Below are positions 2,725-23,600 of a stretch of 28,484 nucleotides of DNA, one piece after another. The stretch's first letter is position 1; each line of letters opens with the position of its first letter. Source of the stretch: a virus. The DNA lies in IMG/VR virus record IMGVR_UViG_3300044624_001503, positions 1-28,484 of that record; one strand, given 5' to 3'. Below the pieces are notes generated by a model. The model was not told where the DNA came from and made no database searches. It worked only from the letters and a program-made list of their open reading frames with translations. The translations under genes and the position numbers were made by a program.

Positions 2725-2730
2725 ATGTAT

Positions 2731-2759
2731 ATTATACTACAAATATAGGTAAAGGTAAA
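2731..2759 (-). promoter_or_regulatory. Sigma70-like promoter for the glycosyltransferase-like operon
   Basis: Read on the minus strand there is TTTACC (2759-2754), a 17-base spacer, then a perfect TATAAT (2736-2731). Six bases (ATACAT) separate it from the ATG at 2724, so transcription would begin at about the A of ATG and give a leaderless or nearly leaderless mRNA. TATAATAT is also a partial match to the T4 late element TATAAATA, so late recognition is an alternative. The -35-like hexamer touches the terminator hairpin just upstream. Confidence 0.6.
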
Positions 2760-2775
2760 GGGTCTACGACCCTTT
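2757..2775 (-). terminator. Hairpin terminator after the 330-aa structural gene
   Basis: AAAGGGTC (2757-2764) and GACCCTTT (2768-2775) form a perfect 8-bp stem with a 3-base loop. It lies 22 bases past the stop codon of the 330-residue gene and before the promoter-like site of the next operon. On the minus strand the stem ends in TTT and is followed by ACCTTTACC, so the U-tract is weak. The position between two transcription units is the main support. It could also act as an mRNA 3'-end stabiliser. Confidence 0.6.
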
Positions 2776-2797
2776 TGGTGAAACGTTCAGTAACCGA

Positions 2798-3790: not shown

Positions 3791-3803
3791 TGTTGCTTCC
3801 TAA

Positions 3804-5168
3804 TTATTTGATTGTAACAATAGCTTCTACAACACCTTCGTTGTCTTCCAATTTATCATGCAAAGCACGGCCCAACGTATTAAACGCTGTTGCTTCGCCT
3901 GAGCGAGCTGCACGTGCCAGCCCATTACCGGCACTGACCAAACGATCGCCTTTGCGTATGCTACCAACCACACGTACAGGTACACGTCCTGTCATAGCAA
4001 TTGGAGGATGCGTTGCATCGGTGCCTGCACCCGAATTCATCAGGTAAGCAGCTTGTGTACTAATAACACCAAATACGTTTTCACTCAATTCGTTAACAGC
4101 ACAAGTGATTTCTGCTGTGCCACCTAGCTCAACTACAGTACCTGCTGGTTGTTCAATATCAATTGCAAAACGTTCTGCAACGTCAGCGTATTGTGCAGAA
4201 GTTGCCTTAGCAAATACTGTGTTAAAGTAACCAGAACTGCTACCAATGTTGCCTACACCATTGCCGTTGAGATTTGTAATTCCAACTACGCCAACAGCGG
4301 CTGTGGTTCCTACAATAGAAAGAGCTGGTGTTAATACACCACCTACGTTGACACCAATTACCAAATTACCGTTGCTAGTTTGATTGTAAATCTGTGCTTG
4401 TGTGCCAGCCACAGTCAACCGCATGTCTGAGTTTAAACCAACACTTAAACCACCGTTATTGAGTACACCTAGTGTGCCAGTGGTTGATGTGTTTGTGTCG
4501 GCTCGCATGAATTGATTACTGAGCAGGCCATTCAATGCTTGAGAATTTGTTGCAGTGCCTTGGAACAATGGAACTTGACTTCCTACCAATGTGCTTAATG
4601 TAATACCAGGCAATACAGATGTGAATCCAGAAATTGCTACCTGGGGAGTAAATGCTGCATCCTTACTAATGATGCCAACTACACTGTCTTGTACAAATAA
4701 TTTAATAACAACGTGACTAACTGCTGTGTTGTCAACAATGGTGTCAACGATAGCGCCAGTGACTCCAGTGCCTGCTGTAAATTGTGGACCGACTAGTAAC
4801 CATTGTGTACCGGTGTATACTTTGAGCTGAGCATTTGTGGTGTCGTACCATAAGTCGCCAATAGAGTTACTGACTGGTGCGCTTGCACTAGCTGTGGCAG
4901 CTCCGATGGTTTTAAATACTGTACCATTATAAACTTTAAGCTGGTTAATACCAGAGTTAGTATCAAACCATAGTTGACCAGTAAGCGGTGCACCTGGTGC
5001 TGTAGTATTTGCACCATTCTCTAATAGATGAATAAAGTTTTCATCTAAAAAATCGCCGTATCCAGCATAGTTCTTACCAATTAAGGTCATTGAACTAGAT
5101 GTGTTAATAGTACCGTCTGCGATCACCGCAAAGATTGTACCATTTGTAAGGTTAATTGTATATGCCAT
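3804..5168 (-). CDS. Tail fibre protein with conserved C-terminal domain, 454 aa
   Basis: The N-terminal part has IGKNYAGYGDFLDENFIHLL followed by two copies of a short beta repeat, GQLWFDT...QLKVYNGTVF (residues 64-86) and GDLWYDT...QLKVYTGTQW (104-123). Both are typical of marine T4-like fibre proteins. The middle is low-charge, Thr/Gly/Asn-rich and probably forms a trimeric beta shaft. Residues 306-337 hold NIGSSSGYFNTVFAKATSAQ and then YADVAERFAID. The C-terminal domain follows (about 340-454; PAGTVVELGG, VFGVISTQAAYLMN, ALTGRVPVRV-like AMTGRVPVRV, KGDRLVSA). It resembles the Peptidase_G2-type end domains of phage fibres, which serve in folding or trimer assembly. No catalytic residues can be assigned. 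GGAG lies 9 bases before the ATG and a TAAATA late-promoter-like core lies 25 bases before it. Confidence 0.85.
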   Translation of the reverse strand: MAYTINLTNGTIFAVIADGTINTSSSMTLIGKNYAGYGDFLDENFIHLLENGANTTAPGAPLTGQLWFDTNSGINQLKVYNGTVFKTIGAATASASAPVSNSIGDLWYDTTNAQLKVYTGTQWLLVGPQFTAGTGVTGAIVDTIVDNTAVSHVVIKLFVQDSVVGIISKDAAFTPQVAISGFTSVLPGITLSTLVGSQVPLFQGTATNSQALNGLLSNQFMRADTNTSTTGTLGVLNNGGLSVGLNSDMRLTVAGTQAQIYNQTSNGNLVIGVNVGGVLTPALSIVGTTAAVGVVGITNLNGNGVGNIGSSSGYFNTVFAKATSAQYADVAERFAIDIEQPAGTVVELGGTAEITCAVNELSENVFGVISTQAAYLMNSGAGTDATHPPIAMTGRVPVRVVGSIRKGDRLVSAGNGLARAARSGEATAFNTLGRALHDKLEDNEGVVEAIVTIK

Positions 5169-5221: not shown

Positions 5222-5830
5222 TTATGCGGCACTCAAATTAGTCAGCGTTTGAATACGCAAAGTATAGTCTATTTGAATCTGCCGATTCAAACTCTTTTGT
5301 ACTGGGTGAAAAATTACATGGGTAATAAGACGTAGATCTGTAGCACTACCATTCCAACATTTTAAACCCAATTCGTCAAAAACATATTCACCATTGAAAT
5401 TGGTGCTGTTATCAAATGCTTGTTGACCGGGTGGTTCACCGTAGTCTAACAAACATGTTACTAATATATCTGTATACACACGCCCAGGGGTGTGCAAAAC
5501 TGTCATTTTGTTATTTGTAGGATCTGTATCAGCTGCTGAATTATCGTCAACAACTTTGGCATAAGTTTCATTGTATAGGTCGGCATTTTGACCTGTGGTA
5601 TTGGGTGGCAAATAGGTGATAACACCAGTAGGGTCTACACTGCTGCCACCGTTGCCAAATGCCATTTGATAGATAAATCCTACGTTTCTATCACTAAGTG
5701 ATTGTGCCATGGCAATACTGATATTTTCATAATGAATGGCGTTCTTTTTATCTACCAAAACTTCGCCTGAATTAGGGTCTGTAATTTTTACAAACCCTTC
5801 AATTTTGGTCAGCCCCGGCTGAATAATCAT
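5222..5830 (-). CDS. Virion structural protein, 202 aa
   Basis: An acidic to neutral, strand-rich protein with no membrane segment. Its N-terminus carries IEGFVKITDPNSGEVLVDKK (residues 11-30), followed by NAIHYENISIAMAQSL. The middle has MAFGNGGSSVDPTG, and the C-terminus has FDELGLKC, then LITHVIFHP and a final strand IQIDYTLRIQ. The pattern of an N-terminal strand pair, an AFGNGG loop and a C-terminal I.YTLRI strand is seen in structural proteins of marine myoviruses, but I cannot assign a T4 gene number. The gene upstream repeats the IEGFVKI.DP..GEV.V.K motif. GGAG lies 8 bases before the ATG, and the start overlaps the preceding stop as ATGA. Probable fibre-attachment or baseplate-periphery component, by position only. 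Confidence 0.8.
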   Translation of the reverse strand: MIIQPGLTKIEGFVKITDPNSGEVLVDKKNAIHYENISIAMAQSLSDRNVGFIYQMAFGNGGSSVDPTGVITYLPPNTTGQNADLYNETYAKVVDDNSAADTDPTNNKMTVLHTPGRVYTDILVTCLLDYGEPPGQQAFDNSTNFNGEYVFDELGLKCWNGSATDLRLITHVIFHPVQKSLNRQIQIDYTLRIQTLTNLSAA

Positions 5831-5983: not shown

Positions 5984-8900
5984 TTAAATTGCACCCCGTA
6001 AAAACCTTGCAGCCTGGGTATTGGTATCTTGCAATGCTACACCATTGCTAGGGGTGTTTATGCCAGGCGCATACCATGTTACACCACGGCGTACTAACAT
6101 GGTTACTTCAACCCCTTCTGGAGGAGCTACATAGAAGTTAACTACAACTGGTGCGTCATCGGTGATAAAATAAGTACCTTGTTGACGTATTCCAGCAACG
6201 TATACTTCGACTGTGTCGTCGGACAATGTGCTGTCTTCCCCAAAATATGTGGTAATGTTACTGGCGGTAAATGTAGTGGTTGTGCCGTCGGCTACCTGAG
6301 TGTTGCTGACCACATAATCTTGGAATTCTGCTGGCAATAGATTAGCACGGCCCATGTCATATATTTCACTGTTAATTGCATGTGTACTTGCTGCTGTGCC
6401 AGCGGTTCCGCGCATTAGACTATAAACAGTATTGGTTGTGGCATCTCTATAGCGATACATGATACGTTCGCCGTTGATTGTGATTACTCCCCAGATATTG
6501 TCAGTCAAACTTGGATTGCCAAGTTTGCTAGCGTCGGCAACATAAATCACATCATCTAATTGCCCTAATTCTTGAACCAATGTAGTTGTGCTATTTGCAG
6601 TTATTCTATAAGTTAATTGCAGGCCGCGCATGTCTTGGAATATTCTAAATGCCATGGCTTCTGGAATTGTACTTTGGGTAAATTCTGTAACCATGACAAT
6701 GTCACCGGGATTCATTACACCGGATGATAAGATCACTTCGTTTCCAGACATTACAAATCCAGATCCAAAGAATAATCTACGACCATTTAATGTTACCCAC
6801 AATCGATCTGGCGCTGTTTGTCCTGGACGCAGATATAATTGGTTGGCTGTAACAGTAGCTGGGATGCTGGTGCTATAATCAAAACTGCCTGGCGTGCCAG
6901 TGATATTGCCAGCGTCAAAGTCTGTGGTATCATACCCTTCAGCAATTAAAACTCCGTCGGTGACTGGACCAACCCAAACCTGGGTTAAAATGTTTTGTTG
7001 TCTTGTGTCGTTCCAGGTTGTTACTGTTATAACATCTCCTAAAATTGGAACTAATCCTTGATCCACTGCAAAGAACAACTGATTACTAACAATGAATACC
7101 TGTGTGTTTGTTGTTACGTATACTAACAATTGATCACCCGGGTCCGGAGTAAAGTTTAACGTAATTGTACGATTTACTCCTGGAACATATGGATCAACAT
7201 AATAGTCAGTGTACGGTACTAGAGGAATGCTGTTGTTATAAACCACAACTTCGTTTTCAGAAATAACGTCTTGTGTAAAGCCCAACCGTGTTGGCAATTC
7301 AAATACCAAACTGCTACCATCGCTGACGTATTCTGCACCGGCTGCTGTTCTTGCTCGCAGTCCATTGACTGTAACAACGGCATTTACTGGATTGGTGTAT
7401 CCTGCAAAGTTTTCTAATGTAAAGGTTGTAGAGGTGCCATCAGCAATGAAACTTTGTGTTTGTGGAGTGCTCCAACTGTAGTTGACCGGCAATCCGTTTA
7501 TTGTGGTTGGACCAATTGCAGTAACGCTGAGACTATCGGCATCTGTAAATGTTTCGCCAAACTCAATCGATGTATTACCGGTGTTGGCTCTGAATGTTAA
7601 TGTGCCTTCTGGAAGACCGTCGGGCGCAGAACTAATAATCAAGGTTGTTGTTCCAACTTTGCTTAATACTGTTTGCCCTGCAGTAAATCCGGTTCCCGTA
7701 ATGAGACTTCCTACAGCAATACCCACTGTACTTGTAACTACTAAGGTAGTTCCGCTGCTGCCATTTGGGTCGTAAACGGCAGTGATCACATCGGTTGACC
7801 ATTCTGGAGCATAGGTATAGTTTGTATTCAAGAATCCGTTTACAAAAATAGCCAATTCAAAAATTTGACTGTATAACACAGGAATAACCAACTCACTACC
7901 GACATCAGCACCATTGTAACGATTATCAAATAATTGATTTCCGCCGCCTAGCGCATACACAGAAATTACAATTATGTCGTTGTTGTTCACACCGTTGTTG
8001 ATAGTAACTGTTTGATTTACATAATCAACAGTGTAATTTACAAATTCGCATAGTTGTGTTCCAGCAGTTTGATTAGCTACTAAAACTGTGTCAGGATATG
8101 GTAACAGACCTGCCCAATTAAATGTTGTGTTGGTTGATGAATAGGTGTATTTGATTTTCTTAAGAGGAAACCCATGTCCATCTAGAGCCCAGTCACTGCC
8201 GCTACGAGTGTAAACACGCATATCTAAGGTATCAAACTCGCTGCCTGGAATTAACTCTTCTGGAGCATAACTGCTAAAAGTATCAACATATCCACCGCCG
8301 TCGACATTGATATCGGTTGGGCGAGTGCCTAGATAAACGTCAAGATATTCGCTGGCATAGATTGCATCTAAAATTCCTGGATCGTATGTAGGACGACCTT
8401 CTGGTCCATAGGACAAGTTATCGTATGGATTGATATCGTAGTTGCCAACGTCAAATCCAGTGTTCTGATCAAAATTTGGCCCGGTTACTTGTACACCGGG
8501 ATATTCGACTCCGTCAATTAACAGTGGTAAACTTAATCCAGGTTGATTTACAGTAGGTACATATAAACCCATTGTACGATCAACACCGCTTAGTGTGCTG
8601 GCAGATACTTCTGTCCAGTCTTCAAAATTAAACACCGGTGAATCAATTGCTGTGCTGTCTGGATTGCTTGCTTCCCAGACTTTGTCTAGGTAACGTACTT
8701 GTGTTCCATTGTCATAGCTAACGTTGGGTTGCCATTCAACAATAGTGGTTTGATACTGGTAACGGTCATATTTGATTGTTGTTTTGATTGCACGTACCAG
8801 ATCGTTATTCATTATGGTACTGGCTTTGGCTCCTACGCCATTGCCGCCAACAAATATTATCGTAGGAGTAGTAGTATAACCATATCCATCAACCACAAGG

Positions 8901-11900
8901 TTAATTTCTGTCAATCTACCAGCACTGTTTACAACTGCTGTAGCTGTGGCCGGGGTGCCTGCATAGGTCAATGATGCGGTGCCGTCTACTTTAGTGCCCG
9001 ACGTAAACTCTGGTGCTGCTAATCCAGTGGTTCCGGCCGACGTTACTGTGTATAAATTTGTACCGTAAAATACTTGCTGGCCTAGTATGTATGCAGTACT
9101 AGGTTGCCATTCGGTTCCAACCACAACCGTTGGGGTTACTGTGTAACCTGCGCCAGCATTGTCAATGGTTATTTGTTCTATGTACAGGACATAATTGTTA
9201 AACCACTGTGTCCAGGGCCATTGTAACCAAATTTCAGCCTGGCTGGTTACATCACTAATTGAGCTTTCAACTGTGCTGTTGCTTTTTTGATATGGTAACA
9301 GTACTGGACTAACAAATTGAGGTATCTGTAGTGCCAAATCATAATACGCAGGCACATCAAAGTCAGTGAGATTGCCCAGATAAGAATCTGCACCGTCATA
9401 AGTCAAATTGAATTCACGTATTTGTACATGGTATGGTTTAACTTCTTGGATGTAATCCAAGACAAATGTTTGGTTGTCTTGAAGATAATTTTGGAAGGGC
9501 AACAATGCTCGAATTTTATGATCCACATCGATCAAACTAGTTTTTAACAACCATTCTGGAGCTGCTAATTCACTATAGATAAAATTAAACATCAAAATCA
9601 AACTACGATTTCGTTCAATCAACAAATCATCAGTGAATAGCTCTTGATTGATTGCTTGAATTATTTTACGAGTTTCAATAGTTGGCTCTTGGTCAAAATA
9701 TTGAGCATCAAATACTTCAACATCAAATCCAAAGTTTCCAGCACTATAATTCCATATTTCCTCTTTGATTGCAATAGTACCATCTTGCAATCCCACACGA
9801 TCCCATCCAGTATCGACACGCAGATAAATTTCAAATTTACCTTGTGCATTTGCTGTTACCTTAACACTGCTTCCAATCGGCGCCTGGGTCAACGACAGTG
9901 TCGACAATTCAGAATAAATTGGAACTTCAGCAATTGTATTGATGGTGTTATTATATCCAGGTTGATACCAGTCAATGGTATTCCAATATCTGCGAGTATC
10001 GTAATTTTGTACACGAACCAACTCGGTCACACGTTCGCCTGGCAATATGCCCGCAGTTACTTGATAAATTGTCCACAACCCATTTTCACTACTGTCCGAT
10101 ACAATTAAATATTTCCACCCCAATGGAACTTCATTTAGATTTTGAAAACTAAGTTCTTCCAGATTGGCTAACCGTTGATTCCATTCACCTGATCCAGCAG
10201 CTGGTTCCGGCTCTCTACTGTTTAATAAAGATAAACTCTTGGTTTCAACAATAGGATACTGACTAAACACTGTGTTGGCGCGAGTAAGATAGTTTTTCAA
10301 TGCAGAAAATCGATTAACAAACATGCTTTGTCTTGGACGGAATTGCACTCCGTATTGCTCGGGCGGACTTAACAATGGATCTGGAACACTGGCGCCAGCT
10401 GCGTTGGTGCCACAAAAACTGTCTTGTAATTTTCTATACAATGTATCATTTAAGAAACTGTCAGCTCTGCCATCTGCAATCAGCGCATATTCTTGGTGTA
10501 CATTTGCATCAGTTAACTGACGGTCAAATTCTACGTGTAAAATTGTATCTTGAGCACTAATAATATCTTTGGAATTGTAAATAGCCAGTGTGCTGGCATT
10601 CAACGGAGCAATGTATGAAATTCCGCTACTGCGTGGATTTTCAATATATCTTGCAATGCCAACTGGACTCAGAGTTTTTCCGCTGTTGACTGCAATGCTG
10701 TTAAGTCCTCGTACCCAGAAATAATATCTTGTTTCAAAAATATTTTCTTTGTTTAATTGAGTGCTAATTGTGTAGGTTTCAGTACTTAATGGTATTCCGT
10801 CGCCGGTGTAACTCAATGGTGGAACATCACTGGATATCCATTGATAAATGTCTACACGACTTCCTGGGAAAACTTGCCCCCAGCGACGGCTTGCGTATAC
10901 AATATCGTCTTGATTGGGATCAATGAATCGTACTGTGTCTGTGTCCCACCAAATTTCTCCTACGTGTTCGTTGGCCCAGCTATTTCCGTTGTTATGGATT
11001 GGGCCAACATTATAAAAAGCTGGATCAACTGCACCCAAGTAATCAATGTTACGACGGGCAGCACCAAGAATTTTACCTTGTAGTGGATCAAAGAAATCAA
11101 AATATGTTTGTGTTGCACTAGTCAATCTGTCATACATGAACACAGTGTTGAGTTGGTCAATGTTTACAGTTGGAAGTGCTGCATGTATAACTGCCCATGA
11201 TGGACTGTTGTCTGTGTTTTCAAAGATACTTACTATACCGTAGTTGCTGTTGGATACGTTAATGTCATTTCCGGGCGCACCGATCATCAATCGGCCCTTA
11301 CGGAAGTTTACAGCAAGAGCGTAACGATCTCCAGTGTTAACTACTGTGTCAAATAACTGTTGCCCAAATACAAATGCTCCCGGATTTGATGCACTGGCAT
11401 TGGCACTTGGAAGGAAATCAAAAGTATAGGCATCGCCACTTTGATACACTACACTAAAGAAGGTAGTACTACGATCATCAAAATATGTAGTGCCAGAATC
11501 AAACGTCACCGGAATATATGTGTCTGCGTTTGGTGCTCCGATGATCAAGTTTACGGCATTTGAATCAATGTCCAGACTGGTTCCAAAGTAAGCATAATCT
11601 GTGGGATTAGGGCTTACAAGAGTTTGTGCAAATGTATAAGTTACCCAACCAATATCGTCAAAGGCAGACCCATTGACTCCAGGTAACACAGTTAGTTTGT
11701 TACCATCTGTGGCAGCAGCTGAATTGATAACATTGAGAGTCATTCTGCCAGACACAACAACAATGTCGCTGTTTACTACTGGTGCAGTAGTAAAGGTAAT
11801 TTGTCGTGTGGTTGCGTTGTAGGTGTAATCTGTGTTGAGTATTTGCAGTACGTCATCCACATAAACCACTGTGGTATAGGAGCTGGCAACGCTGTACAAA

Positions 11901-14900
11901 GTACCAATGCTAAATGTTCTAGTAGCACCATCACCTGTAAAGGCTAAATCACTAGTAGTGGATGCAACCACGTTAGGTATGTTTGAAGCGTTAATTACAG
12001 CAACCAACCCTGCCACTGTGTTATTAGGTGAATTTGGTACTGTAAACACGGTGTTGTTAATTCTCAACGTGTCTCCAACAGTGAGTGTTGGATTAGCAAT
12101 GGTACTAGTAATAACTCCATACAAACGACTTTGATTTATATTGCGTTGTGCGCTACCTTCTTGCGGACGTGTAACACTGTCAAATGGTGCGCCTGTGTAG
12201 ATACTGCAATCATTTGGGCAAATTACTGTAGCTGTACCAAATGCACTTTCATCAGTTGGATCGTTGGCTACAATTTTTTGAACTTGTTTAAATTGATTTG
12301 TTTCAATTTCTAAGATATCACCCACAACTAAAGTTACAGAATTAGCAAGTATAATATCAGATCCGCTGACAGAGAATTGCCCATTGATGTATTCTGCACT
12401 GTTGGTTAAGAATGTATTATTTAAAATTACACTGACAGGTTCTTCAAATGCGCCGGGTATGGCATACGTCAATTGTGCTGGGTCTGTAATTAGATATCTA
12501 ACAACTGTACGGTCAAACACATACACACTACCAGCGCGATCTATTGTTTGTGATTGAGAATTTACTGCATCATCAAAGTTAGCACCAATTAAAACTTGGC
12601 GACCATCTGTAGTGGTAGCAAGACTGGCACCAAATCTGGCATTGTTATCGAGTCCAGGCACAGTGATTGTGCTTAGGTATTGCCAATACGTCGATGAACT
12701 TACACTAATGATTGCGCCAGCAGGTGGCAATGCTAAAAATGTTAAATCTTGTGTTCCAGCAGTGCTATCTTCATTGAATTCATAATCAAGATGTGGGCGT
12801 TGTATTTCGCCATCGACTATTACTGTAAATGCGTAAATGTTAGTAGCGGTATACAGGTATTCTTGTAGTTGAAAAATTGCTGTAGTGCTATCGCCAGATC
12901 CGGTGCTGGTAAATGTCAGTATTTCACCATTGTCATCAATAGTAACTACCGTGATTACAAGATCATCGGCTGGGGATGCGCCACCTATAACGGTGCCATA
13001 GATTGTAAGTGTGTCTCCAATTCCGTAACCAGACCCTGGAACCACCAAAGTAGGAAAGTACTCACCGCGGGTGACATTGACTGTAAATGCGGCGCCGTTG
13101 CCTATGCCAGATGTTATATTTTGTAGTACTCCGTAGTAAGTTGTGCTGTCTAATTGTGCTGCTTTTCTACGGCGAATGTTCAATCGCAAACCAGCAGTTG
13201 GTGTAGTCAATAGTGTAATGTCATTGATGCCTACAATATAGTCAATTGCATATACCAAGTCTACGTTGGTACCACTTTGTAAATTATCCAATTCAACTTG
13301 AACTTGATTAGGATAGGTATTGTCGATTGTGATGTAATCACTATAGTTAAATGCAGTAGTAACTCCATCAGTAATATAAGTTACTTCTTGATCTTCTAAA
13401 TCATAACGAGCATAAGCGTAAACTCGGTTAACAATCGGCGCACTGATGTACATCCAACGTTCATCTGGGCTGATTGTCACGGCGGTTCCAAATTCAGTTG
13501 GTCCAAAGTTTTGATCTGGTGCCAATAGTAATTGACTGAAAATGTAATCGTTGGTTCCTGGAACCAAATATAACACAGTAGCATAACCACTGTTGTTACG
13601 ACTTTGACTTGCAGCCGCAACAGCCCAAGTTTTGTTGCCAAAATCAACAGCATTACCAAATCCTGCAACTTGCGGTGCATTTAATTCTAAATTTATGTTA
13701 GGAGCATACTGTCCATTAAGATCAGTTCTGTAGGTGATGACTGATCCTGCACCGCTGTTAAAATTAGGTGCTCCGACCAGTGCCGTAAAGTTATCTGCAC
13801 TTTGAGCCAGACTGGTGCCATAGAATGCATTGGCTTCTAGCGGTACACTTTCTAATCGGACAAATCTTGAGAATGGATTTTGTTTTTCCAATACTTCCCA
13901 ATGTCCAGACCCGTTGTCGTCAATCCAGGCACGGGCGCCTGGGACCAATTGATTTGCATACGGCAGTTGTGCCACGTCGCTGGCCTGCGCTACTCGTGCC
14001 GTTTGTAGGAACAGTGCCAGGCCATCGCCGGTTAGTGTGGTTTGATTGGTGTTTACAAACGCATACGCAATTATAATAGAAGTGATTCCAGGAACTGCTA
14101 ATACTCTATATACTCCATTTACAGCGTCATTAAAATAACGAATAATAATTAAATCGCCAACAGATAAATTGTGTGCGGCAGTAAAATACGCCACACTAGT
14201 ATCATTTAAATTGTCCGAAATTTGTACCAGCCGCCCTGGCACTTTTTCACAACGATAAATGTTCCAATCATAACTGTTGGTCTTGGCTACCCAAATTATA
14301 GTGCCTATACCAACAGAGTCAATACTTTGTGCTATACTCGATGGATCGTCTAAACTGAATACTGTGATATCTACGTCATCTAAGTTGACATAACCAGCCG
14401 ACGGTAAAGCAGTATCAGTAATTGTTTTGTAACTGGTTGGAAGTATGTCAGGGCTGGTAATCTTGTAACTTTCTCTCCAAATATTTTCAAGCAAAATTGT
14501 TTGGTCAGCAATGCTGGGCTCTTGCGGTAATGTTACTTGAACTATGCTAGGGTCTGACTGTAATAAATTTTCAAACAAACGCAATTCAAAGAAACTACGG
14601 TTGGCATTGGCACCGTAAGTAGCAGTAAGAACCGCCCAGTTTTCATAAATGTTATATTCACCGGATTCTTTGCCCAGGTCGGCACGAGTAAACAATTCAG
14701 CTGATCGAATTGTTCCTTTACTGCCTAGGAATTGTTGATAAATGTTGACCTGGCTTACATCGTCTAGGTTCAAGGCACTCATGTATTCTCTTGGTCGGAA
14801 TCCAATCAAGCCATAACTCAAAAGATCGTTGTCGCGTTCTAAGTTTGCACTATAGATGTTGTAACTGTTGGCCAACTGATCTGCCTTGTTGGCAATGTTA

Positions 14901-17900
14901 GGCAACAATCCTTCTTGGATCAACTGATAGTCGGCTTTGACCCAATCATTGTAGTCAAACAGAACTTTAGGTTGCACAATGGTTTGTGCTGACCAGTAAA
15001 TATTTTTATAAAGAACAATCTCGCCCTTGGTGTACTTGCGATTGCTTTGCCATTCACGTACATTGTTTTGATTAAGGATAAATCCTTGTGCGTCAACGGT
15101 GCCGTTCCATTGTGTTGAAGTAGAGGCCGAAATTCTTATACGATTTTGACGTGCGGCAGTAACTGGATCATACAATAAGTCTGCAAAAATACTTACGTTG
15201 TCCAATATTACCATGTGTTCGTAGTCGGTGAAACGTAAATTCAGATATGAAATGGTTTGACCTGTGGCACTACGAATCGTAAATGTGTTTTCATTCCGGT
15301 CAATTATTAGATCTCGTGTGGGTAATACTCCGCGATTTTGATCCAACAACATGTTCTCAGGAGTCAGACTCTCAATTGTGTCTACAACTGCACCTTCGCG
15401 AACTGCGATGAGTTTGTTGGCAACCGGATTAAGATTTATTAGAGTTCCAGTTGCCCAGCCCTGCTGGCTGAAATACAAGAACTCCTGTGCCATTTGATTC
15501 CAATTCAATTGGTAACCATTTTCTACATCTGTAAATTGCAATCCTTGGCTTTGTAGCCATGCACCGTAACTAAGAATGAAATCAACTACCATGGTGGTGT
15601 TGGTAAATGTATATCCGTATGGCACCTGTACCAGATTGGTTGTGTACTGTGCGGGCACACGCACAGTAGCACCGCCAGCACTTATTGTTTGTTGCAATCC
15701 ACTGCTGGCACTGGCCAGGATAGTAAAGTACGGGTCAGTTGTGCTGTAACCAAACACAGCATATCCGTTGGGAACACGTTCTACTACCAGCGCACTGTAT
15801 GTGATCTCTGCAAACGGTTGATTTTTATAAAGTAATAAGTTATAGCTTTCGTCGGGCAACAATAGGCTAGAATTTTGACTGTTAGGGCTGCTCTTTTCTG
15901 TAAAGACCTTGAGATATTGTTTGTCAGTAAAGCTGGCCATTCTGTAACACAGTCTTACATCAAGATTGGCCAGATCTGTTGACAATGCGTCGGTACTGTT
16001 ACGACCCAACTGTTGATTGTAATCAATAATCCAGTTTACATAACTTGCCTTGCTGGTACCATTCCCATAAAGTTCAATGGCATACAGTGCATTTGTGTTG
16101 GTTGCACTGGCATTGTAACGATAACGACCCTTGTACAAAAATTGCCCAAGTTCATCATTGTATTTGTACAGGTCTCTGTCAACAAACAAGTTGAAAAATT
16201 CTGCAGGACGTGTCAATGCCAGCAGACGCATGACTGCAAATGGATAATCACTACTGGTCCACCAAGCAGCTTCTACCGGTCCACCGTCGCCTACGTTCCA
16301 ACTCTTACGAAATGCTGTTGGGTCATAGTTACCCACTACGCTGTCAATTGGTGCTAGCAATACACCTTCGTCACTGACAGGAATAACTTTTGTTAATCCA
16401 GGTCTGCGATATTTAGGAATCACATATGGAGTAATTGGATCAGCTACCAAGCCAGCTTCTAGATCGTCCCACAAAACCAAGTTATCACTGGTGTAAGGTG
16501 CAGGGCCATAACGTTCTATCCACCAATCAGGACGTTCAGTAAATCCTAACATTTCCCATGGGGTAGTTCCAGGAGATATAGTGTCGTAGAAGTATTTGTA
16601 AATTCCGCGCCATGCACCCAGCAACGGCGATTCAACAGTACTGCTAATTTCTGCATTGGCATCTAATTTACTACCAGCACTGCTGTAATTGTAAGTGAAT
16701 GGGTTGTTGGCTTGATAGTCTTGTGTTTTGTAATCTAATTTGTTCCAACCCACCCAACTTAAAAAACTTTCGCCAAGTAACTTGGTAACTTCGGCCTGTG
16801 CGTAATTTGTGGTGCGGAAGAAACCAGGAGCAACATCGCTATAGGTCAACGGAACTGGATTGCCATCTGTTTTGAGATTGCTGTAAATGCGATTTTCAAA
16901 TTCCAATAATACTTCATCTCGTATGTCACCAAATGCCACAGTGATACTACCGTCGTGGCCTTGAATTACCACTGTTGGATTTACATAGGTAGAGTCCAAA
17001 TATGCTTGAGGACGAAACTTAGGATACAGTCCCATTTTTGTTGGGGTATTTGGACAAAAGTTTCCAGCGGTATTACCGTACTCACGCAAAGTAATAACAT
17101 CGCCGGTGACCAATGAATTGAGTATAGTTATGGTTGGACCGGTGGTACTAACGGTATAACCAAAACCACGTTCTAATAGTATAGTAACTCCATTGCGTGT
17201 TAGATAAACCAATAAGCCAAGATAATTTGCTGATGTAAAATCGTAAGTTTGTACAGTATCAAATGTTTGGGTGCTGATAGGTGTCACAGTGTAAACTGTT
17301 TCAGTGTATACACTACTGGCCGGCAACATGTCAGACCAATAAAATGGATTTATGTCTGTGCGTCCTTGAGTGATTTCAAAAATAGCACTGTCAAGAATTT
17401 GTGCAACACTATCATTGCCGTAATCGTTACGAATAACTGTGTCAAGAATTAAATTTTTATACTTGACATATTCGCGACTGTTGTAGGCCAAACTTGCATA
17501 AATGTCATATTCTTTATTACGACTAAAATATCCAGTCAGAGTCAGCGGTGAACTTTGTTGTAAAATTTGTAAACCATAAGGAACAATGTTGCCCAGGTCG
17601 CGTGTATTGTTGGCGCCATTGATTGGGCCCACTAGATCTATTAAATTTTCAGCAATGGTACCGTAGTGTCCGCGTATTGTGCCCAATGTAAAGGTTGAGC
17701 TATTTTCGCTAAACGGATTGTTGCTCAGGTTAATTGGAACTTGATAGAATCCTTGGTCACTGACTTGATCGCTTAATACAGCAACTTCAATTATGTCGCC
17801 CGGAACATAGGTTTTTAATAATATAATTGTCGTTGTGGTTGCAGTAGTTGAGACAGAATAGGTACTGGGGTCTTGAAACTGTGCATTAACATACAGTTGC

Positions 17901-20680
17901 ACCGGCGGAACCTCATTCATGTGATCTGCAATATTGACTGCTATGTCTAGTCTAAGTGGGGTTCCTTCATAGGTAAATTGAAATTGTTGGCGACTCAGGC
18001 TAGGAGTTGCTCCTGTTTGCCAACCAATCTCTCTGATAAAATCAACACGATTTTGATACTCACGCACAAATCCAAAACTAATATTTTGTGTCGAGCTGAC
18101 CGAATTTATAACGTAAACAAATGTATCTGTATACAAATTGTTATCAAATACAATGTCACCAATGTTGGTCAAACTCAAATACTTCAATGCAAAACCTAAC
18201 ACAGGATCCTTGGGTCCGGTGCCCGGTGCATAACTTAATAATTTAGATCCAATGAATGTTGAACTAGGATATTTGTCTCGATTGCTAAGACTGATACCGG
18301 CATCATCATAAACATCAAACAATGGTGCTTGATTTATGCCAGTTTTTTGTTGAGATTCGGCCCACTCGACTCCGTCATACCAATAACTCTTGCCTTGTTG
18401 GTTAATACCGCTCAAGCAAACAACCGTTTGATTTATCAATACATCAGCATCAGATGCAGGCACCAAGTTAATGATAGGCTGTGGAATCAACGGTGGTTGA
18501 GTGTCCGGTACAATTAACTCGACCACATAAATTTTATTTCTTACATTTGCATCTTCATCGGCTGCAAATATAACTCGGCTACCTTCTGCAAACGTGTAAC
18601 CATCAATGCTGTAACCTGTTGTACCGTTAATAGTGCTCAACGCATCAGTCACCGAAAAATCAATGATGTTTACTGGTTGCTTGCCTTCAGTCCCAAAGTT
18701 AAATAATTTTGTTCCAGCACGAAATTCTAAAATTGGACGGCGACCCCTGAATGCATTATCAACTACCGGTTCGGTGTTGTTGTAAGCTGCACTGGCATTG
18801 ATAACATCTATATGGAACCAGCGATTACTTCTTGTCCACGGGTTTAAATCAGGACTAGCGCGGTTAATTGTGAGATAATCTAGCTGTAATGGTGCATTTA
18901 ATGTGGCGTCATAATTGCCCACATCATATGGCGTACTATCAAAGGGCACTGTTGCGCTTTGTGTGTATGTTTCTGGGGTAATAAAATCAGTCACCGGTAT
19001 TAGTCGAATACTTGTGCCTACACCTTCAACATAATATGTTTTATTGACATAGTTGGCTGGAATGACATTGCCACGGAATGTCACCGACAGACCATTGGTA
19101 AACTCAACACCATTGGGGCTGATATAATGTTTTTTCCCAAGAATTAAATCTACATCCAATGTAGGGCTGCCAGATTGATCAATTAACTCAATGCGACCAA
19201 ACATGTCAGGATCAAGACCGTCTTGGTAGTATAGTAATTCTTTGGTTGCAGTTAACAGTGGAATTTTTTCAAAAATACCGTCAGCGTCCTTATACCATTG
19301 TGTACTACTCCACTGTGTTCCGTATAAAATTGAAAACTTCTCAAGTTGGTTAATGGTAGTCAGGTTTATTAAGTTAATAACCTGTATGGGCCCCACTGTG
19401 ACGTATTCAATTTTCCAAAGATTATACCGTTGGTCTTCTGGCACAGACCCCCAACCAGCTGCATTGTATTGGAATACTAGTGTACGGCCTTCAAGATTTG
19501 AAATGTTGTCAATGCCATTATGTTCTGCTATGAACGCATCAACCGGCTGACCTTGAATTTGCTCGTAGGTAAGGTTGGTAATAAGGTCAACTGGACCTAC
19601 TATTGGTAGATCATAATAAAAGTTTTGTGCAGTGCTAAACGGAACGTTGAATGTAATAGTTCCAAGATCTTCACCATTGTTAAACACGCCAAGCACATCT
19701 CTGCTGCTGATGTTTGGTGTACTGAGAACTACACCTTCTACACCAGGATCACTCTGAATCCAAAATCCCGGCCCTGTGCCAGGAATAGCGTCAACAACAC
19801 TGATTTGTCCACGCATGTTAAATTGGTTGGCACTGGCATAGTATAAAGTGTCGGGTGCATCTTGAGGTACTACAAAAGTCAGCGTGCCGGTTGAGTTGCC
19901 GTTGTTGGTAACTCCAACATTATATGCATCTACGTTGCCAAGGCTTGCTTTGGTTTTAATCCAGAACGGAAATACCCCATTCATGATAAAGGTAAACACA
20001 TAGGTATTACCACGAACCAATGTCAACGTTGGATTATTTTGGTAATCAATTACATAAGCACTGATACCATTGTTGCCAACACGAAAATTGATTTCTTCTT
20101 TTTGATTTTGTGCTACTTGGAAAGTATAGTTTCCGCCGCGCAATAAAGTAACAGCAGGATTGGTGCCGGCCAAGCCACTAAAGGTATAAACACCATTGGC
20201 ACGACTGACCACAAAATTGTCTGTCAATGGAACAGTAGTTGCAGAAACATCTACGTCCAATGGGCCTGCTGGCAACCAGTAATACTGTTGGTAGTTTACA
20301 AATTTGTCAAAATCAACAAATGGATCCCAACTGTAATATTCGCTGGTGTAGAGTCTGTCAGCATTGTTAGTAAATGCGCCTTGCAAAGCTAGTGCATCAC
20401 TGATGCCGGGATATGTTATGGCATCTTCAATTTTTTGTGTTTCGGGGTCAATTCCAATGACCCCAGGCTCTAATTGATAATTGTTGCGACTGGCAGTCGG
20501 CTCAATTACATATCGATCTAGTGGATTGACTCCGGGACCAACTTTGCGTCCTACATAGCCTTGTGTTTTTTGGAACTGAGGTTCCTGAACTAATTGATCA
20601 AGCGTCGCTGATAAAAATTGTCGATTAACCGGAGTTTGGAATATTTCTGGTAAAAAATCAACTGTGCGTACTCTTGCCAT
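5984..20680 (-). CDS. Giant baseplate wedge / tail-fibre mosaic protein, 4,898 aa
   Basis: One uninterrupted frame of 14.7 kb, about 540 kDa, starting as TAATG on the gp6 stop with GGAG seven bases upstream. By order (spike, gp25, gp6, then this gene) it sits where T4 gp7 and P2 gpI sit. T4 gp7 has only 1,032 residues. Residues 1-170: conserved N-terminus (RTVDFLPEIFQTPVNRQFLS; YYWLPAGP near 131). 205-297: cupredoxin-like. About 1236-1268: HDGSITVAFGDIRDEVLLEF. About 1303-1407: aromatic-rich, with WWIERYGPAPYT. Carbohydrate-binding-like modules lie near 1873-1915, 3853-3907 and 3978-4025. About 1982-2038: FLGSKGTIRSAELF...YGANANRSF. About 2284-3158: seven FG-GAP repeats with insertions. About 3202-3278: GEIWWDTDTVRFIDP. 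About 3682-3772: DYIQEVKPYHVQIREF. 4170-4898: repeated beta domains ending in QAARFLRG. The C-terminal and propeller parts probably face the host. Structural role is firm; exact T4 equivalence is inferred. Confidence 0.9.
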   Translation of the reverse strand: MARVRTVDFLPEIFQTPVNRQFLSATLDQLVQEPQFQKTQGYVGRKVGPGVNPLDRYVIEPTASRNNYQLEPGVIGIDPETQKIEDAITYPGISDALALQGAFTNNADRLYTSEYYSWDPFVDFDKFVNYQQYYWLPAGPLDVDVSATTVPLTDNFVVSRANGVYTFSGLAGTNPAVTLLRGGNYTFQVAQNQKEEINFRVGNNGISAYVIDYQNNPTLTLVRGNTYVFTFIMNGVFPFWIKTKASLGNVDAYNVGVTNNGNSTGTLTFVVPQDAPDTLYYASANQFNMRGQISVVDAIPGTGPGFWIQSDPGVEGVVLSTPNISSRDVLGVFNNGEDLGTITFNVPFSTAQNFYYDLPIVGPVDLITNLTYEQIQGQPVDAFIAEHNGIDNISNLEGRTLVFQYNAAGWGSVPEDQRYNLWKIEYVTVGPIQVINLINLTTINQLEKFSILYGTQWSSTQWYKDADGIFEKIPLLTATKELLYYQDGLDPDMFGRIELIDQSGSPTLDVDLILGKKHYISPNGVEFTNGLSVTFRGNVIPANYVNKTYYVEGVGTSIRLIPVTDFITPETYTQSATVPFDSTPYDVGNYDATLNAPLQLDYLTINRASPDLNPWTRSNRWFHIDVINASAAYNNTEPVVDNAFRGRRPILEFRAGTKLFNFGTEGKQPVNIIDFSVTDALSTINGTTGYSIDGYTFAEGSRVIFAADEDANVRNKIYVVELIVPDTQPPLIPQPIINLVPASDADVLINQTVVCLSGINQQGKSYWYDGVEWAESQQKTGINQAPLFDVYDDAGISLSNRDKYPSSTFIGSKLLSYAPGTGPKDPVLGFALKYLSLTNIGDIVFDNNLYTDTFVYVINSVSSTQNISFGFVREYQNRVDFIREIGWQTGATPSLSRQQFQFTYEGTPLRLDIAVNIADHMNEVPPVQLYVNAQFQDPSTYSVSTTATTTTIILLKTYVPGDIIEVAVLSDQVSDQGFYQVPINLSNNPFSENSSTFTLGTIRGHYGTIAENLIDLVGPINGANNTRDLGNIVPYGLQILQQSSPLTLTGYFSRNKEYDIYASLAYNSREYVKYKNLILDTVIRNDYGNDSVAQILDSAIFEITQGRTDINPFYWSDMLPASSVYTETVYTVTPISTQTFDTVQTYDFTSANYLGLLVYLTRNGVTILLERGFGYTVSTTGPTITILNSLVTGDVITLREYGNTAGNFCPNTPTKMGLYPKFRPQAYLDSTYVNPTVVIQGHDGSITVAFGDIRDEVLLEFENRIYSNLKTDGNPVPLTYSDVAPGFFRTTNYAQAEVTKLLGESFLSWVGWNKLDYKTQDYQANNPFTYNYSSAGSKLDANAEISSTVESPLLGAWRGIYKYFYDTISPGTTPWEMLGFTERPDWWIERYGPAPYTSDNLVLWDDLEAGLVADPITPYVIPKYRRPGLTKVIPVSDEGVLLAPIDSVVGNYDPTAFRKSWNVGDGGPVEAAWWTSSDYPFAVMRLLALTRPAEFFNLFVDRDLYKYNDELGQFLYKGRYRYNASATNTNALYAIELYGNGTSKASYVNWIIDYNQQLGRNSTDALSTDLANLDVRLCYRMASFTDKQYLKVFTEKSSPNSQNSSLLLPDESYNLLLYKNQPFAEITYSALVVERVPNGYAVFGYSTTDPYFTILASASSGLQQTISAGGATVRVPAQYTTNLVQVPYGYTFTNTTMVVDFILSYGAWLQSQGLQFTDVENGYQLNWNQMAQEFLYFSQQGWATGTLINLNPVANKLIAVREGAVVDTIESLTPENMLLDQNRGVLPTRDLIIDRNENTFTIRSATGQTISYLNLRFTDYEHMVILDNVSIFADLLYDPVTAARQNRIRISASTSTQWNGTVDAQGFILNQNNVREWQSNRKYTKGEIVLYKNIYWSAQTIVQPKVLFDYNDWVKADYQLIQEGLLPNIANKADQLANSYNIYSANLERDNDLLSYGLIGFRPREYMSALNLDDVSQVNIYQQFLGSKGTIRSAELFTRADLGKESGEYNIYENWAVLTATYGANANRSFFELRLFENLLQSDPSIVQVTLPQEPSIADQTILLENIWRESYKITSPDILPTSYKTITDTALPSAGYVNLDDVDITVFSLDDPSSIAQSIDSVGIGTIIWVAKTNSYDWNIYRCEKVPGRLVQISDNLNDTSVAYFTAAHNLSVGDLIIIRYFNDAVNGVYRVLAVPGITSIIIAYAFVNTNQTTLTGDGLALFLQTARVAQASDVAQLPYANQLVPGARAWIDDNGSGHWEVLEKQNPFSRFVRLESVPLEANAFYGTSLAQSADNFTALVGAPNFNSGAGSVITYRTDLNGQYAPNINLELNAPQVAGFGNAVDFGNKTWAVAAASQSRNNSGYATVLYLVPGTNDYIFSQLLLAPDQNFGPTEFGTAVTISPDERWMYISAPIVNRVYAYARYDLEDQEVTYITDGVTTAFNYSDYITIDNTYPNQVQVELDNLQSGTNVDLVYAIDYIVGINDITLLTTPTAGLRLNIRRRKAAQLDSTTYYGVLQNITSGIGNGAAFTVNVTRGEYFPTLVVPGSGYGIGDTLTIYGTVIGGASPADDLVITVVTIDDNGEILTFTSTGSGDSTTAIFQLQEYLYTATNIYAFTVIVDGEIQRPHLDYEFNEDSTAGTQDLTFLALPPAGAIISVSSSTYWQYLSTITVPGLDNNARFGASLATTTDGRQVLIGANFDDAVNSQSQTIDRAGSVYVFDRTVVRYLITDPAQLTYAIPGAFEEPVSVILNNTFLTNSAEYINGQFSVSGSDIILANSVTLVVGDILEIETNQFKQVQKIVANDPTDESAFGTATVICPNDCSIYTGAPFDSVTRPQEGSAQRNINQSRLYGVITSTIANPTLTVGDTLRINNTVFTVPNSPNNTVAGLVAVINASNIPNVVASTTSDLAFTGDGATRTFSIGTLYSVASSYTTVVYVDDVLQILNTDYTYNATTRQITFTTAPVVNSDIVVVSGRMTLNVINSAAATDGNKLTVLPGVNGSAFDDIGWVTYTFAQTLVSPNPTDYAYFGTSLDIDSNAVNLIIGAPNADTYIPVTFDSGTTYFDDRSTTFFSVVYQSGDAYTFDFLPSANASASNPGAFVFGQQLFDTVVNTGDRYALAVNFRKGRLMIGAPGNDINVSNSNYGIVSIFENTDNSPSWAVIHAALPTVNIDQLNTVFMYDRLTSATQTYFDFFDPLQGKILGAARRNIDYLGAVDPAFYNVGPIHNNGNSWANEHVGEIWWDTDTVRFIDPNQDDIVYASRRWGQVFPGSRVDIYQWISSDVPPLSYTGDGIPLSTETYTISTQLNKENIFETRYYFWVRGLNSIAVNSGKTLSPVGIARYIENPRSSGISYIAPLNASTLAIYNSKDIISAQDTILHVEFDRQLTDANVHQEYALIADGRADSFLNDTLYRKLQDSFCGTNAAGASVPDPLLSPPEQYGVQFRPRQSMFVNRFSALKNYLTRANTVFSQYPIVETKSLSLLNSREPEPAAGSGEWNQRLANLEELSFQNLNEVPLGWKYLIVSDSSENGLWTIYQVTAGILPGERVTELVRVQNYDTRRYWNTIDWYQPGYNNTINTIAEVPIYSELSTLSLTQAPIGSSVKVTANAQGKFEIYLRVDTGWDRVGLQDGTIAIKEEIWNYSAGNFGFDVEVFDAQYFDQEPTIETRKIIQAINQELFTDDLLIERNRSLILMFNFIYSELAAPEWLLKTSLIDVDHKIRALLPFQNYLQDNQTFVLDYIQEVKPYHVQIREFNLTYDGADSYLGNLTDFDVPAYYDLALQIPQFVSPVLLPYQKSNSTVESSISDVTSQAEIWLQWPWTQWFNNYVLYIEQITIDNAGAGYTVTPTVVVGTEWQPSTAYILGQQVFYGTNLYTVTSAGTTGLAAPEFTSGTKVDGTASLTYAGTPATATAVVNSAGRLTEINLVVDGYGYTTTPTIIFVGGNGVGAKASTIMNNDLVRAIKTTIKYDRYQYQTTIVEWQPNVSYDNGTQVRYLDKVWEASNPDSTAIDSPVFNFEDWTEVSASTLSGVDRTMGLYVPTVNQPGLSLPLLIDGVEYPGVQVTGPNFDQNTGFDVGNYDINPYDNLSYGPEGRPTYDPGILDAIYASEYLDVYLGTRPTDINVDGGGYVDTFSSYAPEELIPGSEFDTLDMRVYTRSGSDWALDGHGFPLKKIKYTYSSTNTTFNWAGLLPYPDTVLVANQTAGTQLCEFVNYTVDYVNQTVTINNGVNNNDIIVISVYALGGGNQLFDNRYNGADVGSELVIPVLYSQIFELAIFVNGFLNTNYTYAPEWSTDVITAVYDPNGSSGTTLVVTSTVGIAVGSLITGTGFTAGQTVLSKVGTTTLIISSAPDGLPEGTLTFRANTGNTSIEFGETFTDADSLSVTAIGPTTINGLPVNYSWSTPQTQSFIADGTSTTFTLENFAGYTNPVNAVVTVNGLRARTAAGAEYVSDGSSLVFELPTRLGFTQDVISENEVVVYNNSIPLVPYTDYYVDPYVPGVNRTITLNFTPDPGDQLLVYVTTNTQVFIVSNQLFFAVDQGLVPILGDVITVTTWNDTRQQNILTQVWVGPVTDGVLIAEGYDTTDFDAGNITGTPGSFDYSTSIPATVTANQLYLRPGQTAPDRLWVTLNGRRLFFGSGFVMSGNEVILSSGVMNPGDIVMVTEFTQSTIPEAMAFRIFQDMRGLQLTYRITANSTTTLVQELGQLDDVIYVADASKLGNPSLTDNIWGVITINGERIMYRYRDATTNTVYSLMRGTAGTAASTHAINSEIYDMGRANLLPAEFQDYVVSNTQVADGTTTTFTASNITTYFGEDSTLSDDTVEVYVAGIRQQGTYFITDDAPVVVNFYVAPPEGVEVTMLVRRGVTWYAPGINTPSNGVALQDTNTQAARFLRGAI
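8603..8746 (-). other. Carbohydrate-binding-like module 3 in the giant protein
   Basis: Residues about 3978-4025 read VEWQPNVSYDNGTQVRYLDK, then VWEASN and, after a Pro/Asp/Ser stretch, FNFEDWTEV. The W-x-P-x-x-x-Y-x-x-G-x-x-V-x-Y...W layout and the closing DW match short CBM5/12 (chitin-binding type 3) modules. Ligand unknown. Confidence 0.55.
8956..9121 (-). other. Carbohydrate-binding-like module 2, inserted in a GxGY repeat
   Basis: Residues about 3853-3907 contain EWQPSTAYILGQQVFYGTNL, then YTVTSAGTTG and TASLTYAG. The Trp, the AY..G..V.Y..N.Y core and the AGTTG loop match CBM5/12-like modules used in phage fibres. It interrupts a glycine-rich beta repeat: GAGYTVTPTVVVG lies before it and GYGYTTTPTIIFVGG after it. 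Confidence 0.55.
11205..13835 (-). other. Seven FG-GAP repeats: predicted beta-propeller in the giant protein
   Basis: Residues about 2284-3158 contain seven FG-GAP-like units. They are YGTSLAQSADNFTALVGAP, FGNAVDFGNKTWAVAAAS, FGTAVTISPDERWMYISAP, FGASLATTTDGRQVLIGA, FGTATVICPNDCSIYTGAP, FGTSLDIDSNAVNLIIGAP and YALAVNFRKGRLMIGAPGN. Several end in a strand such as GSVYVFD or GIVSIFEN. Seven is the blade number of integrin-alpha-type propellers. Insertions of roughly 100-260 residues between units 3-4, 4-5 and 5-6 include fibre-type strands (DGVTTAFNYSDYI; VVYVDDVLQ). A surface-exposed adhesion role is inferred from the family. Confidence 0.75.
14936..15064 (-). other. Carbohydrate-binding-like module 1 in the giant protein
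   Basis: Residues about 1873-1915 read EWQSNRKYTKGEIVLYKNIY, then W and, further on, DYNDWVKAD. The spacing W...Y..G.IV.Y....Y/W....DW is that of CBM5/12-like modules. It lies in the N-terminal half, so it may be architectural rather than ligand-binding. Confidence 0.5.
19790..20068 (-). other. Cupredoxin-like domain without copper ligands
   Basis: Residues about 205-297 show the marine-phage cupredoxin-like pattern: NPTLTLVRGNTYVFTFIMNG, FPFWIKTK, GTLTFVVPQDAPDTLYYASA and NQFNMRGQISVVD. In copper-binding members the first His precedes the PF and a Cys and His sit before the M.G. Here these positions are Val-Phe-Pro-Phe and Ala-Ser-Ala-Asn-Gln, so copper binding is unlikely and only the fold is kept. 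Confidence 0.6.
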
Positions 20681-23600
20681 TAAATTACTCCGCTTCCTGG
20701 GGCTGTTCTAAGATTTGTACTGGTCAATGCTTGTATCACTTCAATGTTATTAACTGTGGCTGCATTAACAAAAATTTGATTAGGGGCTGAGCGAATTTCA
20801 TACAGGTCACCAAAATATTTTTGTTGATTCAGTGGAACTAAAACCACGCTACTTACAATGTCGCCAATTTGGCTGTGCAGGTACGCTGCCAATTCACTGA
20901 AATAGAAAGTATCTCCAAAATTCCACTTGTCAATACTGAAATACGCATCCATGTTAGCGACAACTAAATTTTTAATTTCACTAACACTGGCTGTGCTGTT
21001 GGCAGCCTTAATTACTTTAATGGTTGCACGTAATTCTTCACTGGCCTTTTCGCCAAACAATGGTTTGAATTCTACAGTGTTAACAATCACATTATCGCTG
21101 ATCATTTTATAATTTTGGAGGCCGGCATAGTCTGTTGTGAGTTGGTCAATGGTTGGCGGTTCTGGTTGTGCTACAGTGCCGGTGGAGTCTTTGATCCAAT
21201 TTTGATAGGCAGTATAATAAGCCAATGTCACAACATAAAGATCGATAATGTTGGTCGTACCTGGGTCTAGTCTAGAAGTAAGCGGACTATTATGACGATA
21301 TTGGAAGTACAAACTTTGGCGTCCAATTCTAGCAATAAAATCAGTACGTGCTACCAATGTGCGCACACCTGTGGTTATGTCGATCACTAATTCATAAAAC
21401 AATCCGCTGGTGTAGTCGTACCCAACACTGTTGTCTATGGTTGGATTGTACGCATAAAAAATCTGCCCATCAACATATTGTAACTTAACTAGTTCTAATT
21501 CGTCCAATGTGGCATAGTCACTGTTTACTATGCCTGGCTCGACTAACAAATAGCGTTGTAAATTATCAAAGTCGACCGTAGCCTGCAAAAATACCAATTT
21601 GAGATTTGGTGTCACAGATGGCGCAACAATGTTGTTGAAAAAGTCAGGATTATCAGGAACTCCGTCATTGTCACGGTCTTCAAATCCTACTAAGACTTGG
21701 AAATCATCAACATAGCCGTCGCTTTGAACTGGTTGTCCAACAATGCGTAAACGAGTGTCTCCTTCGAGTGGTAAATTGCTGTCGGGACGACTATTGGTTT
21801 TAAGTACATTTACAAAGTCACGAATTGTGGTTCCGGTGCGGCTATCATAAATCTGTTGGTCACTGAAGAAGAAGAATCGTGTTTCTAACACTGATCCAAA
21901 ATAATAGTCAAGGCTACGAGATGCTACTGTGTATTTTTCACCATCAGTTGTGGCTTGAATAAACCATGATGCATCGTTGTTAATGCCTGCGGTACTGCCG
22001 GCGTTGACCAGACTAAATGGAGCACCAACATCAAGATTGGTGCTGGTAATCAAATACCAGGTAGATGTTAGGTTGTTGTATCCAAGTCCAAAATTACGAT
22101 TTAATGTAACCTGGTCCAATATGTTCTGACGAATTGATGTTGGTAAGTCTGTTACAAACAATGGAATAACTTGCGTGGCAATGGCTCCGGTAGGAATATA
22201 ATTGTTTAAAACAACAGGTCCAACACCGTCGGGAAAATTTCCAAGGCCTTGATTTGTTCCATCAATTACAACTGCTTGCGGGCTGGCCCATAGAACCATT
22301 TTTTCATCAGCACGGGTAGGAACACCTGCTACTAATTGATTGCTGGCGTTGAAAAAATAACCAGCTGGTGGCACAAATTTTACCAAGCTGCCAACTACAA
22401 TATATTTTTTATTGTCGCTAGCATAGGAACCAATGGATAATGGAGTGCCTTCACTGTTTTTAAAATAACCAGTTGTTTCGTTGGCTAATGTTGTGCTTTC
22501 CTGCCAGATGCAATCTAATGCACTTAGACTCGGACGTACATAGTTAGCATAGTAAAATTGTCTTGCGCCATCACCAATTAAGGCTGGTTCAATTTGATTG
22601 GTAACTACGCTGGCAATATCGTTGTTGGTCAGCCAAGTGAACTCAAAGCTGGGCAAGTTGTTGGCTTCATACAATGCGCCGTCACTACTGAATGTGTTGG
22701 TGCTAGAATACTTTCCGGTGGCATCTAATAGATCTAGATAACGACTGGTACCGATACTGGCACGATTCAATGCCTTGCTTTTTAAAATACTGTTGTAGGC
22801 TGTGAACGGAAAGTTATTATAGTCTTCGCCGTTGACCATGCGATTCTGTGTGTAGTAACGAGCAGGAGCACGTTGCTTGATTTCACCAATGGTTTCGCGG
22901 CTTTGTGCATTGGTAACTGGCTGTGTGATGCCACAGGTGAACGTAATTGTTTGTATTTGTCCTGTACGACTTATGTAGCTAATAGGAATTACTACACTTT
23001 GCATTTCTTCTGGATTGACAATGTAGGTCAACCCGTTGCTGGCCCGAACGTATGCTCTAAATGTGCCCACAGGAATTGTTGAGAACACACCATCGCCAAA
23101 GTTTAAAGTTATTTGGTCATTGGCACGACTTGTAACACTGAATAAATTTCTAATGTCCGGGCTTAACTGTTCTACCGCTGCTGCATAAACACTTTCTACA
23201 TACTGCCACTCACTGGCAATATTGCCAAGATTGTCTAATTGGTATAGCCAACGATCGGTGTTGTTTACACCCTCGATGTTGATGTTAACTTGACGATTGC
23301 TGATACGCTCTGGCAGATTAAAATCTTGATTTTGCAAAACACCTTGTTTGAATAAAAAGAAGTAGCCAGTGTTGGCGCTTGAAAATCCCAACTCGTCGTT
23401 GCGGAATAAAACATTAAATTGTCCATTGGGTTTTGGACTGGGTTCATAAACAAAACTTTGTCCAGCGGCCGTGGCATTAACCACCTCGAATGGCATGTTA
23501 ACACCATCAATGGTTGATGTGTATGGAATCACTGGCAAAAATCCAGGAACTAAATTTACAGTATATTCGTCGGTGCGAACGCCAAGTATTGTGTTTCTTG

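Follow-up and report, generated by a model that had tools for sequence, protein, structure and literature searches.

The giant protein (4898 aa) encoded on the minus strand at positions 5984..20680 is likely the gp7-type wedge protein in the baseplate of a jumbo phage of the T4 superfamily, from the assemblage that includes RaK2, PA5oct and Atu_ph07, and it carries lineage-specific surface insertions. The DNA analysed here, hereafter the window, is a complete IMG/VR record of 28,484 bp and very probably covers just part of a larger virus genome. This reading builds on an established frame, gene order and group of homologues, and on the established presence of homologues in virions. The giant reveals no new kind of system, and its remaining interest lies in an unannotated relationship to gp7 and in what became of gp8 and gp11.

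Integrity of the Giant Reading Frame

The frame starts with ATG and runs for 4,898 codons without a stop, in a window that contains no N, and its product has a mass of 539,968 Da (540 kDa) and a pI of 4.3. The uninterrupted 14.7-kb frame reported in the preliminary description was therefore confirmed, also by the coding-type substitutions described below, and its size, given there as nearly five times that of T4 gp7, corresponds to a factor of 4.7 (4898/1032).

As the giant is known from a single metagenomic contig, it could be asked whether misassembly, which the preliminary description had named as a way to overturn its proposal, or a chance joining of frames had produced it. However, an independent contig (L008) was 99.9% identical to positions 15730-28484 (12.7 kb), spanning the N-terminal third of the giant, and open frames of 4458-4953 codons were found in seven independent IMG/VR records of 228-349 kb. 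Moreover, when the giant was compared with three homologues, each of the ten sections of 500 residues showed more differences at third codon positions than at first and second ones, indicating coding constraint along the entire frame. The third-position excess, together with the similar-length frames in independent records, shows that this is not a chance frame. On comparative evidence misassembly is very unlikely, and we give an artificial origin of either kind next to no credence.

Gene Order and Family Membership

On the minus strand, the gene order of the window is hub protein, 604-aa protein, gp25, gp6, giant, 202-aa protein, and 454-aa fibre-like protein. The baseplate hub (26374..27909, minus strand, 511 aa) presents a gp5-type OB domain, and the gp25 baseplate wedge subunit (24170..24544, minus strand, 124 aa) was recognised by Pfam GPW_gp25 with an E-value of 4.5e-7. 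The gp6 baseplate wedge subunit (20680..24123, minus strand, 1147 aa), the expected wedge partner of the giant, matched the profiles phrog_10646 (E 6.5e-287) and phrog_219 (E 6e-24). The giant thus lies directly after gp25 and gp6, in the gp7 position assigned to it from the beginning, and this order points to a location in the wedge.

The giant is a member of an already known family of very large jumbo-phage tail-baseplate proteins: over its core, it matched the profile of PHROG 10938 ('virion structural protein', 3,324 positions) with an E-value of 1.3e-302. A tblastn search with residues 1-2,000 matched 89 of 50,697 phage records, nearly all of the matches listed being jumbo myophages, and at least 594 loci with relatives of the giant were found in IMG/VR. 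Some other relatives exceed 5,100 residues. Giant proteins in the gp7 position are therefore widespread, and they are mostly annotated just as 'virion structural protein'. Given the lengths of the environmental frames and of these longest relatives, the window protein is typical of its own clade. The environmental records G001-G008 (228-349 kb), seven of which hold the frames mentioned above, share with it ~51-72% identity across the N-terminal 1000 aa and, in the two records checked, a downstream cassette of ~201, 463-580, 325 and 102 aa, and they differ from it only in the usual variable regions.

Among isolates, a homologue directly follows gp6 in PA5oct (gp355, 3,857 aa), Atu_ph07 (gp180, 4,449 aa), Phosso (4,555 aa), 121Q (gp582, 3,323 aa), RaK2 (ORF070, 3,326 aa), Vibrio 2.275.O (3,771 aa) and XbC2. 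According to the literature, AP-J-162 has a protein of 4,455 aa related to that of Atu_ph07, and RsoM2USA has one of 2,541 aa related to that of CBB (PMC11242549, PMC8504454). The isolate giants of PHROG 10938 resemble the window protein in the conserved core, in following gp6 where their loci were fetched and in being virion proteins where tested by mass spectrometry, but the inserts of the window protein at aa 146-500 and 2220-3150 are longer than most, its C-terminal extension is a different one, and identity in the core is ~20-38%. Salicola phage SCTP-2 is an exception to the gene order, its giant (3,807 aa) not being beside gp6. In this phage (L005, 6633-15923 and 16001-27424) a protein of 3,096 aa precedes the giant, and gp6 lies at record position ~231 kb. 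The 'moraphage' lineage (PMC12619734) was considered as a possible match for the window, and no link between them emerged.

Presence in Virions

The baseplate role proposed in the preliminary description is supported by mass spectrometry of homologues in virions. PA5oct gp355 was identified as a virion protein by ESI-MS/MS, according to the note in its record. In phAPEC6, gp245 (381.88 kDa) yielded 17 unique virion peptides (PMC7247149), this protein being taken as a homologue because its size fits and it follows gp244, a baseplate wedge protein of 131 kDa. Likewise, CBB_236, taken as a homologue from its place beside the gp6 homologue CBB_237, was represented by 21 virion peptides with 7.7% coverage (PMC5259590). 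The giant is very probably a baseplate protein.

Relationship to gp7

The T4 gp7 profile (phrog_964) gave no match in 13 related genomes, comprising seven environmental records and six isolates, while T4 itself was found as a control. A relationship was instead suggested by the cyanophages, whose genes annotated as gp7 encode 3007-5195 aa (phrog_2885: P-SSM2, 5195 aa; P-TIM68, 4307; S-SM2, 4156; S-SSM7, 3007). Cyanophage gp7 matches residues 723-814 of T4 gp7 at 96-97% probability through a segment of the form FYxxKGTxxSxxxLF. A similar segment was found by profile comparison in the giants (GFRPReYM...FLgsKGTirSAEL), at aa 1957-2049 of the window protein (14534..14812, minus strand; GFRPREYM...YQQFLGSKGTIRSAEL). 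This signature aligns with aa 177-263 of cyanophage gp7, in the register of T4 gp7 734-760, and one weak match of a giant to T4 gp7 falls on the same residues 734-760, that is, on the K-G-T motif. In profile-profile comparisons with cyanophage gp7, the signature reached E-values of 5e-5 to 1.8e-3 over only ~90 residues, and its score was 36-41, whereas none of 60 column shuffles scored higher than 24.8. At the sequence level, the K-G-T signature is thus suggestive of remote homology between the giant and gp7, through a short segment of modest significance. The wedge-type N-terminus of the preliminary description did not hold: the N-terminal 560 residues show no detectable similarity to gp7, and the gp7-like stretch lies far inside the chain.

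Structural comparison was carried out with AlphaFold models of two core sections, aa 1600-2240 and 3140-3800, with mean pLDDT values of 71 and 76, the signature helices being of low confidence. T4 gp7 was not among the listed matches when both models were searched against the PDB. The matches for aa 1600-2240 were ubiquitin E1 enzymes with TM ~0.1, and none for aa 3140-3800 was better than E 0.13; being uninformative, they were discarded as evidence. A PDB sequence search detected no relative of the giant, 121Q gp582, the window gp6 or cyanophage gp7.

It could be proposed that the giant at this position is a structural component of the baseplate or tail that does not descend from gp7, and that another protein plays the role of gp7. 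The lack of a HMMER-level match to T4 gp7, the lack of a structural match and the restriction of the signature to ~90 residues would all agree with this view. Nevertheless, the giant stands beside gp6 in nearly all relatives, the score of its signature is well above those of the shuffles and in the T4 gp7 register, and no other gp7 candidate was found, so that we consider this alternative unlikely. Compared with T4 gp7 (1032 aa), the giant agrees in gene position and in the register of its weak signature, but the T4 protein is far shorter and shares no HMMER-level similarity with it. The points that count against the gp7-type reading are the null result with phrog_964 in the 13 genomes, the short signature, the absence of gp7 from the PDB matches, and the SCTP-2 giant that is not beside gp6.

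A parallel in organisation is offered by cyanophage gp7, which also follows gp25-gp6, is of giant size and carries the K-G-T signature. However, its signature lies near aa 190-230 rather than ~1980 as in the window giant, and a separate gp8 is encoded downstream in several of these phages. In the N-terminal 700 aa compared, the signature and a single module in common were the only similarities detected between cyanophage gp7 and the giant, and cyanophage gp7 used as a query on viral contigs retrieved one locus. By its annotated coordinates, P-SSM2 gp7 (75005-90592; L146, 13980 onward) has 5,195 aa, more than the window protein. Synechococcus phage S-SSM7 (L147, 13995-23018 and 24084 onward) presents two genes of ~3,000 aa annotated as gp7, with a gp9-like gene between them.

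Conserved Core and Variable Insertions

Three blocks are conserved relative to distant isolates (aa 1-145, ~500-2210 and ~3150-3785), summing to ~2,450 residues, close to the full length of the RsoM2USA relative. The N-terminal domain (aa 1-145; 20246..20680, minus strand), with the motif LPEIFxT..FL, is common to all jumbo-phage homologues examined. It is followed by a lineage-specific stretch (aa 146-500) holding a mobile domain of ~110 aa at ~aa 190-300 (19781..20113, minus strand). This domain recurs at the C-terminus of the gp9-like phrog_677 and, with 45-52% identity, in proteins encoded by two Prochlorococcus phages, P-SSM2 and P-SCSP2, and it may resemble a cupredoxin-like fold. By alignment, conserved core 1 spans ~aa 500-2210 (14051..19183, minus strand). 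A variable insertion (aa 2220-3150; 11231..14023, minus strand) with FG-GAP stretches and beta repeats separates it from conserved core 2 (~aa 3150-3785; 9326..11233, minus strand), the end of which reads KTSLIDVDHKIR...EVKPYHVQIREF. The C-terminal extension (aa 3786-4898; 5987..9325, minus strand) holds CBM5/12 stretches and beta repeats and is poorly conserved beyond close relatives.

The adhesion-type domains and fibre-type beta repeats announced in the preliminary description were recovered: FG-GAP was matched in two stretches and CBM5/12 in three, and a beta unit of ~60 residues recurs near aa 913, 1136, 2435, 2595, 2914, 4411, 4451 and 4796, four of these eight positions having served as seeds of the profile.

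Taking together its position, the presence of homologues in virions and the gp7 signature, the conserved core would probably join two gp6 subunits and so form each wedge arm, a contact with gp6 that we infer. Six giants per baseplate would be expected by analogy with T4. The beta-rich insertions and the C-terminal extension, with their FG-GAP, CBM5/12, beta-unit and mobile fibre-type modules, probably project from the wedge, where they may serve as spacers or contact surfaces with low affinity, as the domain types and their variability suggest. Host recognition itself would be performed by separate fibres, with dedicated fibre and pin proteins produced from separate genes. The map of core and insertions and the tentative gp7 signature turn the assignment into a testable one.

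Separate or Merged gp8-gp12 Functions

The preliminary description had gone further and proposed that parts of the functions of gp8 to gp12 may have been merged into this chain, which would then serve as wedge and receptor-binding apparatus at once. The absence of these genes from the window, put forward in support, says little, since the record is a 28.5-kb fragment and the genomes of relatives measure ~300 kb or more. A search for separate gp8-gp12 genes, which it had recommended, was run in the 13 related genomes, and its outcome was divided: gp9/gp10-type proteins proved to be separate, and no homologue of gp8 (phrog_977) or gp11 (phrog_963) was found, although gp6, used as a sensitivity control, was detected in 12 of the 13. 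In the latter search, a sub-threshold match of 28 residues in Atu_ph07 was disregarded, and sequence methods may miss diverged gp8 and gp11 homologues.

Besides the missing gp8 and gp11, the merger could draw on the carbohydrate-binding-type and fibre-type modules of the chain and on the domain at aa 190-300 that also occurs in gp9-like phrog_677. However, the giant was divided into eight sections, none of which reached 3% probability against the profiles of gp8, gp9, gp10, gp11, gp12 and gp53. G001, G002, G005 and G007 have separate genes for proteins that bear the gp9/gp10 anchor at the N-terminus (INIGNTANDGTGDPLRSAF..., cf. T4 gp10 INIGNVVDDGTGDYLRKGG), which in these relatives contradicts the merger for this type of protein. 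In PA5oct, the gp10 C-terminal domain belongs to a separate protein encoded three genes beyond the giant, gp12-type sequence occurs in separate genes in Vibrio 2.275.O, and the window itself has a separate fibre-like gene after the giant. Furthermore, cyanophage gp7 genes of at least 4,000 aa coexist with a separate gp8, and the adhesion-type modules of the giant are variable parts that differ between relatives. In phage MIJ3, which carries the giant, long fibres were described as attached to a spiky baseplate (PMC6892783). The merger is accordingly unsupported by these comparisons, and we hold it to be decidedly improbable.

Matches to the cyanophage gp8 profile (phrog_438) inside the giants were evaluated as a fused gp8 and rejected. 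They fall on profile positions ~185-300, the best alignment of this profile with T4 gp8 lies at positions 3-86, and several matches per chain occur in some phages. Judging from these alignments, we read them as a shared beta module.

Since gp8 and gp11 were not found in the 13 genomes, a takeover of these two functions can be considered in a narrower form, in which both were lost in the jumbo-phage assemblage and their structural roles passed to domains inserted into the giant gp7, perhaps with a share for the phrog_11259 protein described below. We regard this as a speculative and rather unlikely scenario; were it true, the periphery of the baseplate would be built unlike that of T4. The core/insert map and the signature make the replacement of gp8 and gp11 in these phages a concrete structural question.

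Genes Downstream of the Giant

The 202-aa protein (5222..5830, minus strand) belongs to phrog_11259, which is conserved in 87 phage records, mostly of the jumbo phages that also have the giant. Its gene is located directly or nearly after the giant in some phages, whereas in RaK2 and 121Q several kb separate the two, and its product is a candidate partner of the giant. The possibility that it is a hidden gp8, gp9, gp10 or gp11 was rejected at the sequence level, no gp8-gp12 similarity being detected.

The fibre-like protein of 454 aa (3804..5168, minus strand) has families in common with PA5oct gp359, a virion protein by mass spectrometry. Beyond the fibre cassette, the frames at 1-309, 904-1641 and 1622-2422 have a glycosyltransferase- or glycan-related look on weak evidence, the first matching PF13641 with an E-value of 0.036 and the other two having no Pfam match. 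A Ser/Thr/Gly-rich protein of 330 aa, without Pfam or PHROG match, is encoded at 2798-3790, and its counterparts at the equivalent place have 327 aa in G001 and 324 aa in G002.
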